This document shows, piece by piece, positions 2,428 through 22,769 of a DNA stretch of 22,769 nucleotides. The position numbers were made by a program, and so were the translations under genes. The notes under the pieces were generated by a model that saw only the letters and a list, made by a program, of their open reading frames with translations, was not told the DNA's origin and ran no database searches. This stretch comes from a virus. Position 1 is the first letter of the stretch; the number at the start of each line of letters is the position of its first letter. Location of the stretch: the IMG/VR virus record IMGVR_UViG_3300011126_000036, positions 1-22,769 of that record; one strand, 5' to 3'.

Positions 2428-5400
2428 ATGTCAAAAACAGTTAGAATAAGAACAACCCCTAATGGTAATGATTCATACCTTAAGGTAAAACTAGAGCAAG
2501 ATTTCGATTTTATTGAGATTCTATCATTAAAGATATCTCAAGCGGAAGCGTATGCAAGATTTTGTTCTGATTATGGTGTTGTTGTTGGTAGAGTAATTGT
2601 TAACAACGGATTTGGTATTCCTAATGCTAAAGTATCCATTTTTGTTCCACTAACTGATGAAGATGAGGAAGATTCAGAAATTGCTGGTCTTTACCCATTT
2701 AAAAATATTGATGATAAAGATAGTGAAGGTATTAGATATAATCTATTACAAGGTACTTCAAATACATCAGATGAATGTTTTACCCCAGTCGGTACATTTC
2801 CAACCAAAAGAGAAGTAATCGATAATGACACTTCTTTAGAGATTTATGATAAGTATTATAAATTCACCACAACAACCAATGATGCTGGTGACTTTATGTT
2901 ATTTGGTGTTCCAACAGGTAGTCATGTCCTTAATGTTGATGTTGACCTTTCAGATATAGGTGTAGCATCACAAAAACCTTATGATTATATTTCAGAAGGT
3001 GAATCCCAAAAGAGATTTGAAAGTCCAACAAAATTTAAGAGCGATAAAGACTTAGATAAGTTAATCCAAATCAAATCATTTAAGAAAGGTGTTAATGTGC
3101 AACCATTCTGGGGTGATAAAGAACAATGTGATATTGGCATAAGTAGAGTTGATGTTGACCTTAAAAAAAGAATAGTACCATCTGCAATCTTTATGGGGAG
3201 TCTTTTTTCTGATTCAGAAAAGAATTCAATTAATAAGAATTGTAGACCTAGAAAAGACTTTGGTAGGATATGTGAGACAGATACTGGTGAAGGTACCATA
3301 GAAATGATTAGAAGGACGTTAGATGGCGGTATAGAACGTTTCGATGTAGAAGGTGGTAGGGTGATAAATGAGTTCGGCTCTTGGGCTTATCAAGTTCCAA
3401 TGAACTTAGATGTTATGGTTACTGATGAATTTGGTAACCTAGTACCATCTGATGACCCCAATAAGGGACTACCAACAAGAGCAAGAGTTAGGTTTAGAAT
3501 CAGTAAAGACATTAGTGGTGATGAAGGTAGACTTAGGACAACTGCAAAGTATCTAGTTCCTCACAATCCAATAGGGTCAAGTAATTTAGATTATAATTTT
3601 GATGAAAATACAAGTGATGCTCACTTTAGAGATTTTCATTGGAATAAGATTTATTCTGTTTCTAATTTCATTCCTAGAGTTCAAACAACATGTGTTGGTA
3701 ATTGTTCAGATAATAGAAATATGACTGGTATAAAAGATGTTGATGATTGTAGTGGAATTAAGAATCCATTCCCTTACAATAGAGTAGACACTGACTTTAA
3801 TCCATTATTTAGTATTCTTTGTTTAATTATCAATATAATAACTTTAATAATCTATTTAATAAATTCAACAGTAATTTCATTTGTTAATATATTCATTAAA
3901 TTTTTAAATCTATTCCTTAAGGGTATTTGTGAAATAATATTCGCTTTTGCCAAGGTCATATGTGGTTTAATTAAAGTATTAACACTTGGTACTTTCAATA
4001 AGGATAATTGTCTTGAGAATGGTTGTATAACTGGTCAATACAATTCAAGTAGTAATACTTGTCCTTGTGAGAGTACATTACCATATGTTCCTTGTATAAC
4101 CCTTGATTGTGATGGACAGGTATATGCACCAGGTTGTGATTGTAATCCATCAACTATAAACTCAAGTAGTGCAGCTATTGGTTCTGGTGATAATAATCCA
4201 AATGGTATTGGTGTAACTCAACTTGGATGTTGGGCTGCTAGGACTAATGCATCAAACGGTAAAAATATACAACATTGGAGTACCTTCGGTAATAGTTGTG
4301 GTAATACAAACACAACAGGTCATGTTGGTCATGGTACGGTAGGTGCTGGTTTTTCAGATTGTCAATCAATAAAGTTAGCAGAAGCATTAAATATGTTTGA
4401 ACTTGATTTTTACAATGATTGGGTTAATGGTACTTTATATACTTATATGTTAAAATATAAGAAAAAGAAAAGAGGTAAACAAAAGTTTTGTGATGCTGAT
4501 TGTGGTTCATCAGATTCTGACAATGGGTGTGATAAGAGTTGGTTTGTTGACACTTGTGTTGATGGTAGTGATGATAGGAATTCTGTTAAAAGTGTAACTA
4601 AACAATATATTGATGAAGGATTTATAAAACAAGTAACAACTAGATTACCAAATGGTGATGAGGTTGAAAACCTTTACTATGCACCATACGCCAGTAAAGT
4701 TAGTTATAAGTTATTCGCAACTGAATTGGTTCATTTAGGTTCAGTATTTGATTGTGATTGGCAAGGTATCCCAAAGATACAACAATTCTTAGTACCAACA
4801 ACATATAAGAGACCATCATACACTGATGAATATCTAATAGATGATAACGGTAATAATACTAATATTAAAACATCATGTGGAATGACATCAACAGGTGGGA
4901 ATGGTTCAACTGGTTTGTTCTTTGATATTGATTGTAGAGGTCTTGTTGTTGGTCAAATTGGTGGGTTATCTAGATGTGATAGTTTAAAAAGGATTTGTGA
5001 GTGGGGTGTTAATATTGACGAGGCACAATTAGACTCAAATAACCAACCAACAGTTAATGCTGATTGTTATATTGACGATAATGATTTAAACCAACCATAT
5101 GCTGGTAGAGTTAGAGATATATTTTATTCATTAAATAAAAATGATGGTGCTGGTAAATTAAACTCTTGGAGTGGTATACCTTATGGTATCAATACAGGGT
5201 TTGGTATAGGACTTTCTACTGGAAATTTAAATTCAACAACTATAGGACAAGAATATAGAATTTTTAGGGGTACCACAAATGGTCAACCATATTGGACACC
5301 AACTACTGGAATTGCTGGTGGGGGTTATGTTCAATCTAAGAATTCTTATTATTTTTACTTTGGTACAATGCCAGGTCAATCTGCATTGGACTTAATGAAC

Positions 5401-7101
5401 AGGAAATACTTCACAACTTGTTACACACCAAAATCTAATGACTTCTCAATTAATTTAGTTAGTTTAAAAAACCCAACAGCACCTAGCGTTTGTGATGGTG
5501 AAATAAATATAACTGTCATTGGTGGTAATGCACCATACACTTATAATTGGACGGGACCTAACGGTTATACAAACACACAAGTATCTCCATTAACTGGAGA
5601 TTTAACAAATCTTTGTGGTGGTAATTACACTCTAACAGTTACAGATGCTAATGGTGGGACATCTACAGTCACATACACTTTAAATGAACCAGCAACATTT
5701 AGTTGTTCTGTAATAGCGACAGATGCTACTAGTAATGGTGGTAATGGTACAATTACGATTAATGCATTTGGTGGTATTTCACCATACTCATATAGTATAA
5801 ATGGTGCACCATATATAACAATGGTTGGTTCATCAACTCAAATTCAAAAACCTTCTGGTGTATGGGTCGTAGATGTTAAAGACGGAACAGGTACATTAAC
5901 TTGTACTAACCCAACTACAGGTGTAACAATTAATGAACCACCAACACTTTCAATTCAAGGTTTAACAACTTGGGCAGATACAGAATGTGGTCAAGATAAC
6001 GGAACGATTACTTTAGCGTTAAATAGTTCAATTGGTGGCACACCACCATATACGATAAATATTTCATCTAGTAACTCAGCATCGAATAGTTCACCTAGTA
6101 CGATTGTTCCTTTTTCATCATCTTTTACTAATTTAAATAGTTTATTACCAGGTACTTATAATATTACAATATCCGATTCGCAACTACCAACACCACAAGT
6201 TGATACTGATTCTGTTGTGATAGGACCATCAACAAGTCCAACAATATCATACAATGGTGGTTGGTACTGTTGGTCACATCCAGTACAATCTCAAAATATA
6301 TACCCTAGTTTTACGGTTACTGCTAATGGTGGATTTACGATTACATCTAGAGTATTAAACAACACTAATAATATAGTAAACACAAGTATACCACCAATAA
6401 CACAAACATTCCTAGCTGGAACAACAACTGCTGTAATGACAACGTTACATAAGGATAGTAGATATGAATTTGAATTGGTTGATGATGAGGGTTGTGATAT
6501 TACAGTGTCGGCTGATTTCAGACCTGGTGAGGGACACGTACCATCAGCACCACAAAAAATAGAATACATACCAGAAGATTACTGTTGGGTTAATACTAAT
6601 CCAGATATATTACCTAAATTCCAAGTTTGGGTTGATGGTCCGTTTATTATTAAAAGAGGTAGTACTGTTGTTTATACAGAAACAATTGGTGTGGCTAATG
6701 GAACGATTATTACATTACCAACAATTCAAGCGACATCAACATCTGCTGTTTACGAATTAATTGAAACTACAAACAACTGTTCAGTACAAACAACACCTAT
6801 TAACTTTACTTTACAACACCCAACATCTCAATTAACCATAAGCATTGCTTTAGATGGAACCGTTGGTTGTGCTGGAACTTTCCAATCACCAACAACAATT
6901 ACAGCAACCGTTAGTGGTGGATGGGATTCATCTTATACTTATAAATGGTATAGAGATGGTAATATCTTAGGTACTGCCAATCAAGGTGCAGCTACCGCAA
7001 CCCCAACTGTACCTAGCACTGACTGTGATACTGTTTGGACTTGTAAAGTAATTGATGATAAAGGTTGTGAAAAACTAAGTTCTAGTGTAACTATAATATA
7101 A
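2428..7101 (+). CDS. Giant modular baseplate/tail protein with membrane-like segment and SprB/Ig-like repeats
   Basis: This 1557-residue protein is not named in any family I can recall, but its modules are clear. Residues about 50-172 look like a carboxypeptidase-regulatory-type beta sandwich (VVVGRVIVNNGFGIPNAKVS ... TTNDAGDFMLFGVPTGSHVL) split by an acidic insertion. Residues about 460-523 are strongly hydrophobic and could hold two or three helices. Residues about 524-900 are cysteine-rich. Residues 1015-1268 hold three SprB-like repeats (GGNAPYTYNW ... GNYTLTVTDANGG). Residues 1272-1465 hold two copies of a YCW module and 1467-1557 a final Ig-like domain. There are 46 cysteines. Its position between gp6-like and gpI-like genes points to a baseplate or tail-tip structural protein, with the C-terminal Ig-like array probably exposed and able to bind a surface. 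The stop overlaps the next start (TAATG). Confidence 0.8.
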   Translation: MSKTVRIRTTPNGNDSYLKVKLEQDFDFIEILSLKISQAEAYARFCSDYGVVVGRVIVNNGFGIPNAKVSIFVPLTDEDEEDSEIAGLYPFKNIDDKDSEGIRYNLLQGTSNTSDECFTPVGTFPTKREVIDNDTSLEIYDKYYKFTTTTNDAGDFMLFGVPTGSHVLNVDVDLSDIGVASQKPYDYISEGESQKRFESPTKFKSDKDLDKLIQIKSFKKGVNVQPFWGDKEQCDIGISRVDVDLKKRIVPSAIFMGSLFSDSEKNSINKNCRPRKDFGRICETDTGEGTIEMIRRTLDGGIERFDVEGGRVINEFGSWAYQVPMNLDVMVTDEFGNLVPSDDPNKGLPTRARVRFRISKDISGDEGRLRTTAKYLVPHNPIGSSNLDYNFDENTSDAHFRDFHWNKIYSVSNFIPRVQTTCVGNCSDNRNMTGIKDVDDCSGIKNPFPYNRVDTDFNPLFSILCLIINIITLIIYLINSTVISFVNIFIKFLNLFLKGICEIIFAFAKVICGLIKVLTLGTFNKDNCLENGCITGQYNSSSNTCPCESTLPYVPCITLDCDGQVYAPGCDCNPSTINSSSAAIGSGDNNPNGIGVTQLGCWAARTNASNGKNIQHWSTFGNSCGNTNTTGHVGHGTVGAGFSDCQSIKLAEALNMFELDFYNDWVNGTLYTYMLKYKKKKRGKQKFCDADCGSSDSDNGCDKSWFVDTCVDGSDDRNSVKSVTKQYIDEGFIKQVTTRLPNGDEVENLYYAPYASKVSYKLFATELVHLGSVFDCDWQGIPKIQQFLVPTTYKRPSYTDEYLIDDNGNNTNIKTSCGMTSTGGNGSTGLFFDIDCRGLVVGQIGGLSRCDSLKRICEWGVNIDEAQLDSNNQPTVNADCYIDDNDLNQPYAGRVRDIFYSLNKNDGAGKLNSWSGIPYGINTGFGIGLSTGNLNSTTIGQEYRIFRGTTNGQPYWTPTTGIAGGGYVQSKNSYYFYFGTMPGQSALDLMNRKYFTTCYTPKSNDFSINLVSLKNPTAPSVCDGEINITVIGGNAPYTYNWTGPNGYTNTQVSPLTGDLTNLCGGNYTLTVTDANGGTSTVTYTLNEPATFSCSVIATDATSNGGNGTITINAFGGISPYSYSINGAPYITMVGSSTQIQKPSGVWVVDVKDGTGTLTCTNPTTGVTINEPPTLSIQGLTTWADTECGQDNGTITLALNSSIGGTPPYTINISSSNSASNSSPSTIVPFSSSFTNLNSLLPGTYNITISDSQLPTPQVDTDSVVIGPSTSPTISYNGGWYCWSHPVQSQNIYPSFTVTANGGFTITSRVLNNTNNIVNTSIPPITQTFLAGTTTAVMTTLHKDSRYEFELVDDEGCDITVSADFRPGEGHVPSAPQKIEYIPEDYCWVNTNPDILPKFQVWVDGPFIIKRGSTVVYTETIGVANGTIITLPTIQATSTSAVYELIETTNNCSVQTTPINFTLQHPTSQLTISIALDGTVGCAGTFQSPTTITATVSGGWDSSYTYKWYRDGNILGTANQGAATATPTVPSTDCDTVWTCKVIDDKGCEKLSSSVTII
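3805..3996 (+). other. Hydrophobic, membrane-type segment inside the giant protein
   Basis: Codons for residues about 460-523 encode an almost uninterrupted hydrophobic run rich in I, L and F (for example ILCLIINIITLIIYLI and ICEIIFAFAKVICGLI) with single Lys/Glu breaks. It is long enough for two to three membrane helices and divides the N-terminal beta domain from the cysteine-rich middle. Such a segment is unusual in a tailed-phage structural protein. Confidence 0.75.
5470..6231 (+). repeat. Three SprB-like repeats within the giant protein
   Basis: Residues 1015-1088, 1089-1171 and 1172-1268 repeat a pattern of GG..PY.Y, a variable loop, then a G.Y...V.D strand and an N-E-P or GP-type linker. 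Key matches are GGNAPYTYNW with GNYTLTVTDANGG, GGISPYSYSI with SGVWVVDVKDGTG, and GGTPPYTINI with PGTYNITISD. This matches the known SprB repeat family of Bacteroidota surface proteins. The copies are diverged at both protein and DNA level, so they are old duplications. Confidence 0.75.
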
Positions 7102-11528: not shown

Positions 11529-14333
11529 ATGGCAAACGATAGGATTAAGGTAGTTGGGTATGCACAGAAGCAAGTTTTTAATGGTAATATTGAATATAGA
11601 AACTTCTCTGATGATTTAGTTGGTTTACAACAAACCGATGGGTCATCCGTGTTCACCCTTGGTAACTTCCAAATTACAACAACCTTAGATTCAAAACCTA
11701 ATAAGATATTCACAAGTAATAAATTCTCTAATTTTGTTAGTCTTTGTGATTTAGATTTAACCTTAGAGGAAAGTCAAATTCTATTAACTAATAATGCTGA
11801 GGTTAAATTAAACTTAGATAAGAGTGATTTATGTAATTACGCTTATTTTGGTAGTCTTTTAGAGTACGTTAGAGTTTCTTTGGAGGAAATCATCACTAAA
11901 TGGCCAGCATCTCTTTATATGTCACCTATTGTTGGTATTTATGCTAATTATAGTACACTTGAGGATTATAATTACAATAGTTTAGTTAATGAGAGTACTT
12001 TTAAAGTAAGTACATCAGTAATAAACAACAAATATCAGATAAATTACTTAACTAATGGTTCTATCTTAGATACATTTAACGAAACGAATAATTTAAGGAA
12101 CCTAACTGTTAATTACTTAGATTATAGTGTATTAAGAGATGGTACAGAATTTTCTGTGTTAGAATTTACGGGTTCAACATCATTAACAGATGACTATATA
12201 TACTTAAAGGTTAAAGGTAATCCATTTTATGATATTACTGGTACAACAACAACTAACGAGTTCCACATTAAACCTAATAAATTAAAAGAGGATGGGTTTT
12301 TTAATTCTCTTCCAGATTTTGAATCTAATTTACTTAATAGGTTTACAGTTCCTAAGTATAAATCAACTTATAAATTCCCATATAAGTCAGATAATGGTTC
12401 AATTGTATTTAACACAAAAACAATAACTTGGCCAGTATCAGATGGTTATAATATTGATTTTGACACTACTGAATACGCTGATTTTGTTAGTGACTTAATT
12501 AAGATTTCTACAGATTTTGATGAGAGTAAGACCAATCTTATGGTTAGATTCCTTACTGCTGAGGCAATATCTGATTTTGATACCGTTCCTAGATGTGATG
12601 GTTCAGAAGAAGAAACCGCTGGTCAAAAAATGAATAGAACCCTTAAGATTTATGGTAGAGAATACGATGAAATTAAGAGGTATATTGACGGTATTCAATA
12701 TGCGAATACTGTATCATATGATAAAATGAATAACACCCCAGATGCAATTCTAAAATATATTGCTAGAACAATGGGTTGGGATTTAGTATCATCTGTATTA
12801 GAAAATGACTTACTTAAGAATTATGTGACATCAACACCATCTACATACTCTGGTATGAGTAGAGGTTATACAGCAGTTGAGGCAGAAGTTGAGATGTGGA
12901 GAAGAATAATCCTTAATTCACCTTGGATTTGGAAATCTAAGGGTGCTAGAAAGTCAATTGAGTTTTTATTTAAATTCATAGGGGCACCAGATGGTTTAAT
13001 TGAGTTTAATGAGTTTATATACTTAGCCAAGAATAAAATAGACGTTGATTTATTTAAAATATTATTGGAAGAAAATGGTTTACCAACAGATATTGACCTT
13101 TATAATATTGATTCTGATGGTTATCCAAGAGTACCAAACAATAACCCTAATATGTATTTCCAAAAGGGTGGTCGTTGGTATAGACAAACTGCTGGTAGTG
13201 GTTCTACCATAGATATTTTAACTGGTAATAACCCACATGTTGGACCATATGATGGTGGTGCTGCATTTATTAACCAATTTAACAACTTAATACCAGATTT
13301 CTCAGCGGTTACTGTTACATCTACAACTACAACAACTAGTACTACTAATTTATTTACAAATTATGAATCTGGTACGATAAATTCATACGAAGGTGATTAT
13401 TTTGTAGATGTTGTAAGTGAAGGTGATGTTGATTTATCTGATTGTGTTGTAGTAACAACAACAAAGGTAGTTGACCCAGACCCATCAGCAGCTGAAACAA
13501 CAGATTGTGGGTGTGATGTACTTGAAGATGATTATGCTTTGAAAATAGATGTTGAATGTCCTAAGGTGTCAGAACCATCAAATATAGCATGTTACGATGG
13601 ATTAGTTGATATCACAGATGGTCAATATGATGAAATGCAATTTACTTACGAAAATGTAGATGAATTTGGAAATATAACTGACAATAATTATGTGACATCA
13701 TACGTTAGTAAAGAATGTTGTGTTGTTTTTGGTGGTACATCAGTATTTGATGAAGAATGGAGTGACCCTACTAATGGTCCAGTTGAACTATTAAACTGTG
13801 GTTATTTCTGTTGTAAAACTGGTAAATGTGGTTGTGCTGCGACTTGTGATTGGACATTAGCAACAACAGATTTGGCTAATCTACCAATTATTGCACCATA
13901 CTCAAGTAAGTTTTTAATTTTTCAAAAGCCAAATGGTGACCAAACATCGATAACACCTACGGGTTGTTCTTGTATTGCTGGTTATACATCACCAGTTTCA
14001 ATAACAGACCCTAACACTGGAGAGGTTGGTACTGGTTGTATGTTAAATGATTCTGGTGTTCAAGACTTGACTGGTCAACCTAATATAGTATATTATACAC
14101 CATACAATAGTACTACTGGTAAATTTGAAGTTGAGGCTCTGGATTTAACGCCAGGTAAATTTGATACTGAACCAGTTCCAGTACCAGTTGTTAACTACGC
14201 TAGTTGGATTGAAGCTGTATATGCATCAAGAGAAAATGGTATTATACCATGTGACCAATATATGAATAATGGTGTAAATAATGATGTTGAATTTATAGAT
14301 GCTAGTATTTACATAAAAAATGAAAGAACGTAA
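11529..14333 (+). CDS. Large baseplate protein with gpI-like region and cysteine-rich C-terminus
   Basis: Residues about 338-490 of this 934-residue protein resemble the phage P2 gpI/tail-protein-I family, which joins gp6/gpJ at the baseplate wedge. Signs are a helical stretch KMNRTLKIYGREYDEIKRYI, a PDAILKYIARTMGWDLV motif (about 404-420), and the characteristic RRIILNSPWIWKSKGARKSI segment followed by EFLFKFIGAPDG (about 458-489). gpI itself is only about 180 residues, so this would be an expanded version. The N-terminal 330 residues are unassigned. A threonine tract (TVTSTTTTTSTTN, near residue 594) leads into a C-terminal part that holds 17 of the 20 cysteines, including the dense cluster GYFCCKTGKCGCAATC near residue 757. 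It ends in a TAATG overlap with the next gene. The gpI assignment rests on motif memory only. Confidence 0.75.
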   Translation: MANDRIKVVGYAQKQVFNGNIEYRNFSDDLVGLQQTDGSSVFTLGNFQITTTLDSKPNKIFTSNKFSNFVSLCDLDLTLEESQILLTNNAEVKLNLDKSDLCNYAYFGSLLEYVRVSLEEIITKWPASLYMSPIVGIYANYSTLEDYNYNSLVNESTFKVSTSVINNKYQINYLTNGSILDTFNETNNLRNLTVNYLDYSVLRDGTEFSVLEFTGSTSLTDDYIYLKVKGNPFYDITGTTTTNEFHIKPNKLKEDGFFNSLPDFESNLLNRFTVPKYKSTYKFPYKSDNGSIVFNTKTITWPVSDGYNIDFDTTEYADFVSDLIKISTDFDESKTNLMVRFLTAEAISDFDTVPRCDGSEEETAGQKMNRTLKIYGREYDEIKRYIDGIQYANTVSYDKMNNTPDAILKYIARTMGWDLVSSVLENDLLKNYVTSTPSTYSGMSRGYTAVEAEVEMWRRIILNSPWIWKSKGARKSIEFLFKFIGAPDGLIEFNEFIYLAKNKIDVDLFKILLEENGLPTDIDLYNIDSDGYPRVPNNNPNMYFQKGGRWYRQTAGSGSTIDILTGNNPHVGPYDGGAAFINQFNNLIPDFSAVTVTSTTTTTSTTNLFTNYESGTINSYEGDYFVDVVSEGDVDLSDCVVVTTTKVVDPDPSAAETTDCGCDVLEDDYALKIDVECPKVSEPSNIACYDGLVDITDGQYDEMQFTYENVDEFGNITDNNYVTSYVSKECCVVFGGTSVFDEEWSDPTNGPVELLNCGYFCCKTGKCGCAATCDWTLATTDLANLPIIAPYSSKFLIFQKPNGDQTSITPTGCSCIAGYTSPVSITDPNTGEVGTGCMLNDSGVQDLTGQPNIVYYTPYNSTTGKFEVEALDLTPGKFDTEPVPVPVVNYASWIEAVYASRENGIIPCDQYMNNGVNNDVEFIDASIYIKNERT

Positions 14334-16852
14334 TGGGATATTTTTTAGAATATGAATGTACAGATAAGGCTACTATTATAAGTAGTGGTGGTAAGGTTGT
14401 TGAAAACGATAATGGTACGGTCTCAGTGTTTATAGATACTGGGGGTAAAAACCTACACTCTTTACCTATGACAAAATCTTGTTGTGAGAAATTAGACCCA
14501 TCATATACTTTCGATGTTGATAAACAAAAATGTAGGTGGAGTGCTGATGGTCAAGATTGTTTAGATATTGCACCATTTAAACTTGTTCTTAATCCTATAG
14601 AAAATGACGGTGCTATTTTTGTTGTTGATACAGATAACAATGAAGACTGTACTTTAAATATTTCTTTTGATTATTTAATGCAATTTGATTGTGCTGATAT
14701 CCTAAATAAAATTATAGAATCTAATAATCAAAGTATAGGTCAAAGTGGTACAAATTACTTACAAAGTCAATATGATGATTGTGTAACACAACAAAATTTT
14801 TATGAGGGTCAATTATTTACATTACAACAAGACCTAGAAAATACACCATACGTAATAGAATGTAAGGCTGGTAAACTTGATGACTTTGGTGTAGATAAAC
14901 AATATTGTTTAACTGATTTAGGTCTTCAACAATGGGAACAAATATTAGGTACAAACAATTATAATACTTGGGTTAATTCAAATGGTACTGACACTAGTGT
15001 ATATAGTTGTACCGAAGTAAACCAACTAGTTAATTTAGATAACGCTACAAATACTTTATTTTTTAATTCTTGTGGTGTTGAGATGGGTCTTAGGGATAAG
15101 ATTACAAAACAGATTAGTGAGACTCAAGCGACATTATCTAAATTTAATTGTGATGAAATATTAACTACTATAAATGAATTAACACCTGTTATTAGATGTT
15201 TAACCGTTACTGATATATTGGAATCGTTTAATGTATCAATGAGTGTTGACTTGGTTGATTCAGATACTGGTAAATTAACACAAATATATGAAGAGGAAGT
15301 TTTCAATATCGGAACTGGAAACTTATCAACTTACCTTCAAGACAACCAACCAAATACTGGACTTATAGCAAGTGGTGAGACAGGTACAACTTTTTGCCAA
15401 AATGTTGCAATTCAATTAATGACTGAATTACAAGAGGTATTACAACAATCTGGCACAACTCAAATTCAAGACCTAGTTCAGAACTCATTTGATTCTAATT
15501 GGTTAAGTTTTAATACTACAATTGAAGACCAAAGTATTTTAGATTCATTATACAATGAAAAAATTAAAATATCATTAAAGATAAATGAGTGTTGTGTTGA
15601 TTTCTCTATATTGGTTGATAGAATTAAGTTAAATAGTGATTGTACTAAACTTGATAGTCAAGAAGTTAGAGTTACCAAATCACCAAGTTTTGATATGGTT
15701 AGGGTTTTAGATAATAAGAAATCATGGTTATCAAATGAAGATTCAGAACGTAGAGAATTTGACCTTAGGTTTAGAGATACACAATACGATATAAATAACT
15801 ACAAATTAGCAATCAATAGTAAAGAAGTTGATTTGGATATTAACCCAGCAAATGCTATTGAACAAGACTTATTTTGTTATGTTAGTGATAATAACTGCAT
15901 CTTAACTGGTACAACTGAGGTTACTGGAACCACATGTGGTGACAACGGAATTGACCTAACAGAACTTATGTCAACTGATATTAGTGAGATTACATCACTT
16001 AAGGAATTTACAGATACATTAAAAAGTGAACTTATAAATGTTAAGGGATGGAAAACAATGTCATCTCACCCAACACTTAGATTACTTTATGATAGATATA
16101 TGAATAGTACCGACTATTGTGATATGTTAAGTTCACAATTTGATTACTGTACTATGATGGAATTTTCAGAACTGGTTGGTACGTACTGGGTTGACTTGAT
16201 AGAACAAGTGGTTCCATCAACAACAATTTGGGGTTCTACATATGTTTATGGGAATACACTATTTGACCAACAAAAGTTCACATATAAAAAGTATTCCTTA
16301 TTACCATGTAAATTACCTAATTCTGGTGGTGGTGTGGTTAGCCCAACTACTGGTTGGACATCAGATGTTGATGTTGAACTTGAAGAATTACAAAACGACC
16401 CATATTATGATACAATAAGTGGTTCAACTACTGGTCAAACATTTGTTAATGTTACTTACACACCTAGTGGTAGACCCGCACCATTACTTAGACCATCATG
16501 TGAAGGTGTTGGGATAATACAAATGAATTGTGGTTCGGAATTCGTTGGTAGAATAGTTAACTACGGAACACCGAATAATGATGGTATTGAATCAGAAGAA
16601 CCATCAACTGGTGATATATCAATTACTGAATGTGCCATTAGTGTTGAGATAGGTAATGTTGCGATATCAAAACTTGGTTATTCAGCACATGCTAATACTA
16701 GCGGTGATATAGTTGGTCCAGTTACTTACTTATGGAGTAATGGTGAAACTAGTCAAACAGCAATAAACTTACAATCTGGTCAAACATATACGGTAACTGT
16801 ATATGATAACGGTATTGATGGGTGTTCAGAAACTGCCAGCGTAACGATTTAA
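14333..16852 (+). CDS. Cysteine-rich tail/baseplate protein with C-terminal SprB-like repeat
   Basis: This 839-residue protein has 28 cysteines spread over its length, beginning with YEC and a KSCCEK pair in the first 51 residues. Residues about 145-175 (QSQYDDCVTQQNFYEGQLFT, then LQQDLENT) look helical and may form a short coiled coil. Residues about 604-650 contain a conserved-looking aromatic segment, GTYWVDLIEQVVPSTTIWG, followed by FDQQKFTYKKYSLLPC. The last 76 residues (from 764) resemble one SprB repeat: VTYLWSNGETSQTAINL with SGQTYTVTVYDN and a terminal GCSETASVTI. No signal peptide is seen. Coupled through TAATG to the gpI-like gene and sharing its cysteine-rich character, it probably works with that protein at the baseplate rim or tail tip. 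Function is otherwise unknown. Confidence 0.78.
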   Translation: MGYFLEYECTDKATIISSGGKVVENDNGTVSVFIDTGGKNLHSLPMTKSCCEKLDPSYTFDVDKQKCRWSADGQDCLDIAPFKLVLNPIENDGAIFVVDTDNNEDCTLNISFDYLMQFDCADILNKIIESNNQSIGQSGTNYLQSQYDDCVTQQNFYEGQLFTLQQDLENTPYVIECKAGKLDDFGVDKQYCLTDLGLQQWEQILGTNNYNTWVNSNGTDTSVYSCTEVNQLVNLDNATNTLFFNSCGVEMGLRDKITKQISETQATLSKFNCDEILTTINELTPVIRCLTVTDILESFNVSMSVDLVDSDTGKLTQIYEEEVFNIGTGNLSTYLQDNQPNTGLIASGETGTTFCQNVAIQLMTELQEVLQQSGTTQIQDLVQNSFDSNWLSFNTTIEDQSILDSLYNEKIKISLKINECCVDFSILVDRIKLNSDCTKLDSQEVRVTKSPSFDMVRVLDNKKSWLSNEDSERREFDLRFRDTQYDINNYKLAINSKEVDLDINPANAIEQDLFCYVSDNNCILTGTTEVTGTTCGDNGIDLTELMSTDISEITSLKEFTDTLKSELINVKGWKTMSSHPTLRLLYDRYMNSTDYCDMLSSQFDYCTMMEFSELVGTYWVDLIEQVVPSTTIWGSTYVYGNTLFDQQKFTYKKYSLLPCKLPNSGGGVVSPTTGWTSDVDVELEELQNDPYYDTISGSTTGQTFVNVTYTPSGRPAPLLRPSCEGVGIIQMNCGSEFVGRIVNYGTPNNDGIESEEPSTGDISITECAISVEIGNVAISKLGYSAHANTSGDIVGPVTYLWSNGETSQTAINLQSGQTYTVTVYDNGIDGCSETASVTI
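16622..16849 (+). repeat. Single SprB-like repeat ending the 839-residue protein
   Basis: The encoded residues 764-839 follow the pattern of SprB repeats: YLWSNGETSQTAINLQSG, then QTYTVTVYDNGIDGC and a final strand. It matches the repeats in the giant protein upstream in general form (W...G.Y..TV.D..GC), but the DNA is not a recent copy. Confidence 0.65.
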
Positions 16853-22090: not shown

Positions 22091-22669
22091 ATGAGTATTA
22101 AAGAGAATAAAAATGAGTTGATTCTTGGTCTTGACGTGAGCACGAAAACAATCGGTATTGCATTATTTGAAGATGTTGATGGTGAAGGTAAATTAAAATT
22201 ACTACATCATGTAACACCAAATGTTAAACCAAAACCAGAAACTAAGATGCAAGAATTATTCGAAAAAGCAAATATTTTCGAAAATGAATTTCTAAATAAG
22301 TATGTTGATGTTGGTATCACAAGAGTTATAATAGAAGAGCCATTACTTAGGTCTAATAACGTTAATACGGTAGCAACACTACTTAGATTTAACGGTATGG
22401 TGTCTAGGTCAGTATATAGTGTATTAGGTATAGTACCAGAATACATTTCATCTTATGATTCAAGAGCATTTGCTTATCCAGAATTAATGCAAATCAGAAC
22501 CAAAAACAAAAAAGGTGAACTATATTCAGAAAATGAAATTAAAAAAAAGAAACCTGTTTTATTTGGTGGTTATGATTGGGATGTAGATAAGAAGATGGTA
22601 GCATGGGAAAAGGTTGCTGACTTAGAACCACAAATCAAATGGCTTTACACAACCAAAGGAACCCTAAAG
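22091..22669 (+). CDS. RuvC-like Holliday junction resolvase, 3' partial (cut by adapter)
   Basis: The frame from ATG at 22091 gives 193 residues before adapter sequence begins. ILGLDVSTKTIGIALFED (residues 11-28) is the RNase H-fold first strand with a probable catalytic Asp15, and RVIIEEPLLRSNN supplies the second acidic position (Glu82 or Glu83). This agrees with RuvC-type resolvases, where catalysis needs D, E and two further C-terminal D residues. Those last acids normally lie further along; a possible W-D-V-D region occurs at 163-166 but the usual final D..D motif is not seen and is probably lost with the missing 3' end. In phages such enzymes cut branched DNA during replication or packaging. 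The start follows an A/T-rich leader with no Shine-Dalgarno. The open frame continues into artefact sequence and must be trimmed. Confidence 0.65.
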
Positions 22670-22733
22670 AGATCGGAAGAGCACACGTCTGAACTCCAGT
22701 CACCGATGTATCTCGTATGCCGTCTTCTGCTTG
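22670..22733 (+). other. Illumina TruSeq indexed adapter (artefact)
   Basis: The 64 bases match the standard TruSeq indexed adapter in full. They begin AGATCGGAAGAGCACACGTC, continue to the 6-base index CGATGT at 22704-22709 (TruSeq index 2), and end CCGTCTTCTGCTTG at 22720-22733. This is library chemistry, not genome. Biological sequence therefore ends at about 22669. Confidence 0.99.
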
Positions 22734-22769
22734 AAAAAAAAAAAAAAACAAACAACAATAAGAAACATA
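22734..22769 (+). other. Poly-A run and read-end noise after adapter (artefact)
   Basis: Fifteen A residues (22734-22748) directly follow the adapter end, as is usual when an Illumina read runs past its template. The remaining 21 bases are low-complexity A/C/T-rich sequence with no recognisable content. They are best treated as noise rather than phage DNA. Confidence 0.9.

Follow-up and report, generated by a model that had tools for sequence, protein, structure and literature searches.

The repeat protein and its neighbourhood

The window analysed here is a linear virus record from IMG/VR, 22,769 bases in length, in which three genes for a gp6-like baseplate wedge protein, a small protein and a large repeat protein follow one another on the plus strand. 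The gp6-like protein (Baseplate_J-like, 607 aa, positions 161-1984) was recognized in PHROG and tblastn searches: it matches the baseplate wedge PHROGs 10646, 6 and 219 with E values of 1.1e-16, 3.8e-16 and 2.4e-15, respectively, and the baseplate wedge protein of Flavobacterium phage immuto with an E value of 1e-53. As this open reading frame (ORF) lies upstream of the repeat protein, an earlier note on this DNA was right to speak of a baseplate region. Immediately 5' of the repeat protein, positions 2047-2421 encode a protein of 124 aa with the Cys motif MSCESCKNK and one hydrophobic segment, and homologues of it occur in at least 41 loci. Small ORFs of this type (MGCNCKTSDK, MSGCNCKTKSG) occupy the same position in two related loci, L108 and L099. 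The repeat protein itself (P0002, 1557 aa, positions 2428-7101) consists of a core without named relatives, followed by a C-terminal extension of SprB-type Ig-like domains. Towards the other end of the window, positions 22091-22669 encode a RuvC-like Holliday junction resolvase (E 8.8e-5), and the contig ends, at positions 22670-22769, in read-through of an Illumina adapter (AGATCGGAAGAGCACACGTCTGAACTCCAGTCAC..., followed by poly-A). The final ORF extends into the adapter, and therefore about 100 bases are not phage DNA.

The earlier note had described three diverged repeats of the SprB family at 5470-6231, and these repeats are real. The Pfam SprB family (PF13573, curated cut-off 28 bits) matches the whole protein in four stretches with 49.3 bits (E 3.8e-13), which upholds the family assignment, and it is the only Pfam family to exceed its cut-off; the HMM search that had been named as a check thus returned SprB and no generic Ig-like family above its cut-off (Filamin scored 13.8 bits and BiPBP_C 23.1 bits, both below theirs). 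Taken singly in the window DNA, the repeats at 5494-5562 (30.9 bits) and 5734-5805 (28.4 bits) lie above the PF13573 cut-off and those at 5980-6072 (16.3 bits) and 6895-6957 (19.4 bits) under it. Repeat borders were taken from an HMM built on the phage family's own repeats. This model places R1, which contains GGNAPYTYNW, at residues 1006-1092 (positions 5443-5694, 80 bits), R2 at 1090-1175 (5695-5955, 45 bits) and R3 at 1177-1271 (5956-6240, 45 bits), so that the triplet spans 5443-6240 with domains of about 85-90 aa each. A weak, degenerate fourth repeat is found at the C-terminus (residues 1469-1557, positions 6832-7098, 22 bits), and the tandem arrangement is accordingly one of three repeats together and one apart. 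The similarities of R1 to R2 and of R1 to R3 exceeded all of 500 shuffles and that of R2 to R3 exceeded 484 of 500. The interval given in the note is off by about 30 bases at most; the note had not listed the fourth repeat. R3 is followed by a fast-evolving region (6241-6831; rates measured on other homologue pairs), and the window's own copy of this region has no Pfam match. Elsewhere in the window, the C-terminus of the ORF at 14333-16852 contains a weak lone SprB-type match (16697-16750, 14.7 bits).

Structure prediction, also named as a check in the note, gave a confident AlphaFold model of the array (51 arrays, pLDDT 91.8) with three Ig-like sandwiches, and each repeat is accordingly predicted to be a beta sandwich.

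The core and its optional C-terminal array

The core comprises residues 1-1005 (positions 2428-5442), of which the N-terminal 400 are the most conserved. It has no Pfam family over cut-off, no NCBIfam match and no credible PHROG match, with none in the first 500 residues. Its fold search returned weak CNA-B or pilin-like matches only, and a PDB sequence search with the core and with the array gave no relevant match. The AlphaFold model of the core (pLDDT 80) contains one continuous, very hydrophobic helix of 60 residues (459-518, positions 3802-3981; hydropathy peak 2.84), and a comparable hydrophobic segment is present in every homologue examined. Such a helix is unusual for a soluble baseplate protein and is possibly membrane-inserting. 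Together with the hydrophobic segment of the adjoining small protein, it would suit a phage protein outside the virion that is anchored in the host membrane and displays the array there, for example for superinfection exclusion. We find this reading scarcely credible, as the gene lies in a tail cluster, in order directly after the gp6-like gene, and the protein has neither a signal peptide nor a T9SS signal. A hydropathy scan revealed no N-terminal export signal, the first hydrophobic segment being at residue 455, and no T9SS sorting domain was detected in Pfam searches for CHU_C and Por_Secre_tail (to E 1) or in NCBIfam (to 0.1), whereas the bacterial array proteins used as positive controls do match.

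A large protein downstream of gp6 recalls T4 gp7, with a small ORF intervening in this case, and the gene order is akin to the gp6-gp7 order of T4-like phages (6-7-8-9-10-11-12 in RB43). Comparison of the core with RB43 gp7 gave an hhalign probability of 0.1% (single-sequence template), and with single-sequence templates the core showed no homology to gp7 and gp10 of RB43 or to gp109 of immuto. Since no T4 baseplate protein is linked to the core by sequence or fold, its placement rests on gene order, which suggests that the core is located in the baseplate. The tail of these phages would be contractile.

Relatives of the core were found in 82 IMG/VR records in a first scan and in at least 594 contigs in a profile scan, some of them 274-362 kb long. 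The core has no relative in INPHARED, and a pattern-based scan of GTDB contigs did not find its N-terminal part; the phage family is abundant and so far uncultured. In 42 records tested, a SprB match was present in 34 and above cut-off in 23, mostly in this same protein. Among 79 complete homologues taken as representatives, 55 carry at least three repeats directly C-terminal to the core, spaced at a median of about 90 aa. One of the 79, L099, is a frame-shifted copy with its repeats in the next ORF, and was omitted from the core tree (78 rows).

Homologues without the array mostly stop about 20-25 residues past a core-end motif, YFGxxPGKT, which in the window reads YYFYFGTMPGQS...KYFTTC (residues 974-998, positions 5347-5421) and marks their natural C-terminus. 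Such natural ends were found in L108 (944 aa), L136 (835 aa), L143 (1035 aa) and most of an array-less clade. L108 and L136 belong to the array-bearing clade, and the next gene starts at once. On a core tree built from the N-terminal 430 residues, presence of the array requires four changes (one deep split and three single absences), compared with 20.1 when labels are shuffled. Since the core can end naturally where the array begins, the array is a separable C-terminal module, and comparison of the homologues shows it to be a discrete add-on, an optional extension. In three of 20 array-less homologues a DUF5122 (delta-60) beta-propeller was found inside the core, as in L057 (8001-14294).

Relatives of the repeats and their origin

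We searched 84,980 GTDB species for cellular relatives of R1. The 51-array alignment yielded too few conserved patterns to scan genomes with, so three close R1 sequences were used as the query, and the ranking is consequently biased to the window's own lineage. The scan gave 355 confirmed places, of which the top 80 (80/80) come from organisms named as Bacteroidota, and a tblastn search of PLSDB plasmids with the whole C-terminus gave five records, again from Bacteroidota only. The best solved match to the array model in Foldseek by E value is likewise from this group, and a Bacteroidota affinity of the repeats is thus supported. This match is to pieces of GhpA, the grappling hook protein of Aureispira (PDB 9fls, 9flu, 9flv; E 1e-8 to 1.5e-7, 17-21% identity), which, unlike the phage protein, is a giant bacterial protein. 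T5 tail fibre pb4 ranks next, followed by numerous animal Ig/FnIII chains. Whole-chain TM-scores to GhpA are low (0.31-0.36), and therefore the match concerns the domains and not their arrangement. With VIA-align, GhpA does not rank above titin or fibronectin domains, and about 50 Ig and FnIII chains fall within about 1 Z unit, with no specific relative. In BFVD, a protein named 'SprB repeat' from an uncultured Caudovirales phage ranks first (UniProt A0A6J5LD72, E 4.1e-10), so that SprB repeats in phages already bear this name in a public database; in the literature searched, the phrase is not used for a phage protein.

The array shares with the SprB family of Bacteroidota surface proteins the HMM family, the GG..PY.Y motif and a tandem arrangement of domains of similar length. 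It differs from them in repeat number (3-4 in the phage protein, up to 71 in cellular proteins) and in per-repeat PF13573 score (16-31 bits, compared with up to 65 bits). T9SS sorting domains were found in all three of the cellular repeat proteins tested. Giant T9SS-sorted SprB-repeat proteins span many genera, Roseivirga, Pedobacter and Bacteroidales included, and a secreted fucoidanase also contains SprB repeats (PMC7698502). The gliding adhesin SprB is encoded on a bacterial chromosome with spr/gld genes, whereas the phage protein is encoded on a virus record beside baseplate genes.

The nearest named phage sequences in tblastn searches are RB43 fibritin and T5-like pb10. Proteins of the T5-type pb10 and Hoc-like kind likewise display Ig-like domains on a phage structural protein; the Hoc-like family phrog_2973 matches residues 1022-1123 of the window protein (E 3e-9), and the array matches T5-like dec proteins in tblastn. 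PF13573 is above its cut-off in pb10 of Escherichia coli phage DT57C and of Salmonella phage GE_vB_N5, and absent from the cultured Flavobacterium phage immuto. They differ in that pb10 is located on the capsid by way of an N-terminal domain (PMC10713586), PF21393, which is present in DT57C pb10 and absent from the window protein (to E 1), and in that pb10 scores higher as a generic Ig domain. RB43-type fibritin (wac) is tail-associated and has Ig-like repeats that align with the R1-R2 region (tblastn E 2e-4), but its SprB score is below cut-off, it forms a neck whisker and its gene lies at another position.

The occurrence of the repeats in a fucoidanase, in many genera and in coliphage pb10 indicates that the SprB name denotes an Ig-like subfamily common in Bacteroidota, and not motility; a 'SprB repeat' match should not be equated with a gliding adhesin. 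The earlier note had linked the repeats specifically to gliding adhesins, and this link is not supported, since the cellular repeats are not gliding-specific and the family also occurs in phages of non-Bacteroidota hosts, namely in pb10 of the two enterobacterial phages named above. Nothing links the array to gliding motility in particular. Mimicry of SprB by the phage protein is possible and has no specific support.

In order to characterize the host, we examined Shine-Dalgarno-like (SD-like) motifs at gene starts. These were found at none of 14 starts in the window and at 10 of 555 orthologous starts in the phage family; among comparison phages, the counts were 1 of 48 in immuto, 14 of 25 in RB43 and 10 of 32 in Mel-JY01. 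One of the 14 window starts (8827, beginning with TTT) is a guess and is to be dropped, with the same result. A low SD frequency is also compatible with AT-rich genomes, and the close comparisons are those with immuto and RB43 only. As there is no relative of the core in GTDB or INPHARED, the host call rests on the missing SD sites and on the affinity of the domains, from which a Bacteroidota host is very probable for this phage group. The structure model, the 80/80 relatives, the gp6-like neighbour and the missing SD sites together support the presence of Bacteroidota-type repeats on a baseplate-region protein.

The earlier note had further proposed a phylogeny against host SprB repeats as a test for gene capture, and we compared the phage repeats with host repeats accordingly. 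When host repeats were chosen by similarity, R1, R2 and R3 required four, six and seven changes (23 with shuffled labels), and in the sub-lineage of the window both R1 and R2 grouped with host repeats, R1 being nested among them (SH-aLRT 97). When the host repeats were drawn at random, R1, R2 and R3 required two changes each (17.5 when shuffled), and trees that kept all R1 or all R2 in one clade had higher likelihoods than the unconstrained tree (p-AU 0.79 for R1 and 0.78 for R2). The signal for recent capture from host SprB came from a tree whose host repeats had been picked for their likeness to the window's R1, and it vanished with random repeats. Recent capture need not be assumed, because the triplet is fixed in 55 representatives and its members are mostly positional orthologues. 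The repeat alignments have only 82-83 columns; the trees favour old vertical inheritance, with single replacements still possible, and on these alignments the triplet would be an old, mostly vertically inherited add-on.

These results bear on the proposal of mimicry of, or competition with, the gliding adhesins of the host, or of capture of the repeats from host SprB. Membership in the same Pfam family, the Bacteroidota affinity and the position of R1 in the similarity-chosen tree speak for it, as does the proposal, itself unproven, that Flavobacterium phage receptors are located in the gliding machinery (PMC7345892). We nevertheless consider it very improbable: PF13573 exceeds its cut-off in enterobacterial phages, host repeats are not restricted to gliding proteins, the phage protein carries no T9SS signal, and throughout a deep clade the members of the triplet are mostly orthologous, the capture signal being gone with random host repeats. 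A composite scheme with a membrane-active baseplate protein, whose core helix would enter the outer membrane of the host upon contact and whose host-type array would sense the surface, R1 and R2 of the window's sub-lineage having been replaced from Bacteroidota surface proteins, appears improbable.

Evolutionary rates and the possible role of the array

Between the window and its relative L006, identity is 96% in the N-terminal 400 residues, 85% in the rest of the core, 93% in R1, 85% in R2 and 75% in R3 (partial). The corresponding values for L042 and L045 are 94, 86, 90, 90 and 77%, with 72% after R3. Two pairs (L048/L080 and L127/L129) are exceptions with a better conserved end. These comparisons of close pairs show a substitution rate that climbs towards the tip. 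Values of dN/dS are about 0.05 for the N-terminus and, from R3 onwards, mostly 0.2-0.5; the values of 0.8-1.1 in R1-R3 of L030/L053 were obtained at low dS and are noisy. With dN/dS below 1 for almost all segments, nothing indicates that escape from a receptor has been positively selected. Among 32 tips after R3, five contain further SprB repeats, and there are single weak matches to Big_9 and DUF7062.

A passive spacer or decoration, in which the Ig-like domains would steady the baseplate or set a distance and own no ligand, is conceivable though rather doubtful. Domain number and spacing are fixed and conservation is confined to fold residues, as such a role would predict, and many tail and capsid proteins of phages contain Ig-like domains for which no ligand is known (fold matches; DT57C pb10, PMC10713586). 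Constant length, however, does not account for faster change towards the tip, and a structurally needed part would not be absent from L108, L136, L143 and an entire clade. The same two observations weigh on a docking site within the virion, by which the repeats would hold another tail part such as the long tail fibres, in the manner of fibritin whiskers: a docking surface should be conserved, yet R3 and the region after it change fastest, and array-less relatives occur. We therefore regard docking as unlikely, even though a close named match is the fibritin (wac) of RB43-like phages, annotated as aiding long tail fibre attachment, and the gene sits in the tail cluster.

The reading we prefer, with a probability of roughly one half, is that of a modular Ig-like stalk with a variable tip for weak contact with the host surface. 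In this model, a tandem of three Ig-like domains belonging to the SprB subfamily of Bacteroidota has been fused to the C-terminus of a baseplate-region protein; the core would be seated in the baseplate and the three domains would point outward as a stalk. The variable distal part would make weak, reversible contact with a glycan or protein coat of the host, and this contact would keep the phage near the cell until its receptor-binding proteins engage. Conservation along the array is mainly of scaffold residues (Gly, Tyr, Asp), and no lectin, CBM or other known domain was found in the tips after R3, so that binding is an inference; exposure of the array and its service as a stalk are inferred as well. 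By this analysis, the array probably serves the phage as an aid in touching its host.

The best analogues of such a stalk are the Ig-like decorations of Hoc and pb10 and the BACON domains of gut phages, and not SprB as a motility adhesin. The crAss-like phages with BACON domains are gut podoviruses. BACON domains are Bacteroidota-associated and partly tandem in tail-region proteins of these phages, for which contact with host or mucus has been suggested, and weak glycan contact by phage Ig-like (Hoc-like) and BACON domains has a reviewed precedent (PMC9853417). BACON and the SprB-type array represent different domain families and the same kind of reuse; beside the BACON domains of gut phages, the array would be a second case in which tail-region proteins of phages have reused an extracellular domain associated with Bacteroidota.

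The natural array-less relatives render the role of the stalk testable. Three records with an array-less homologue (L057, L061 and L073) have SprB matches in other ORFs (925, 930, 556 and 840 aa), a pattern that would fit movement of the module from gene to gene. In a 642 kb uncultured phage (L087, LR756502.1), a single ORF of 1675 aa contains at least 12 SprB-type repeats over cut-off.
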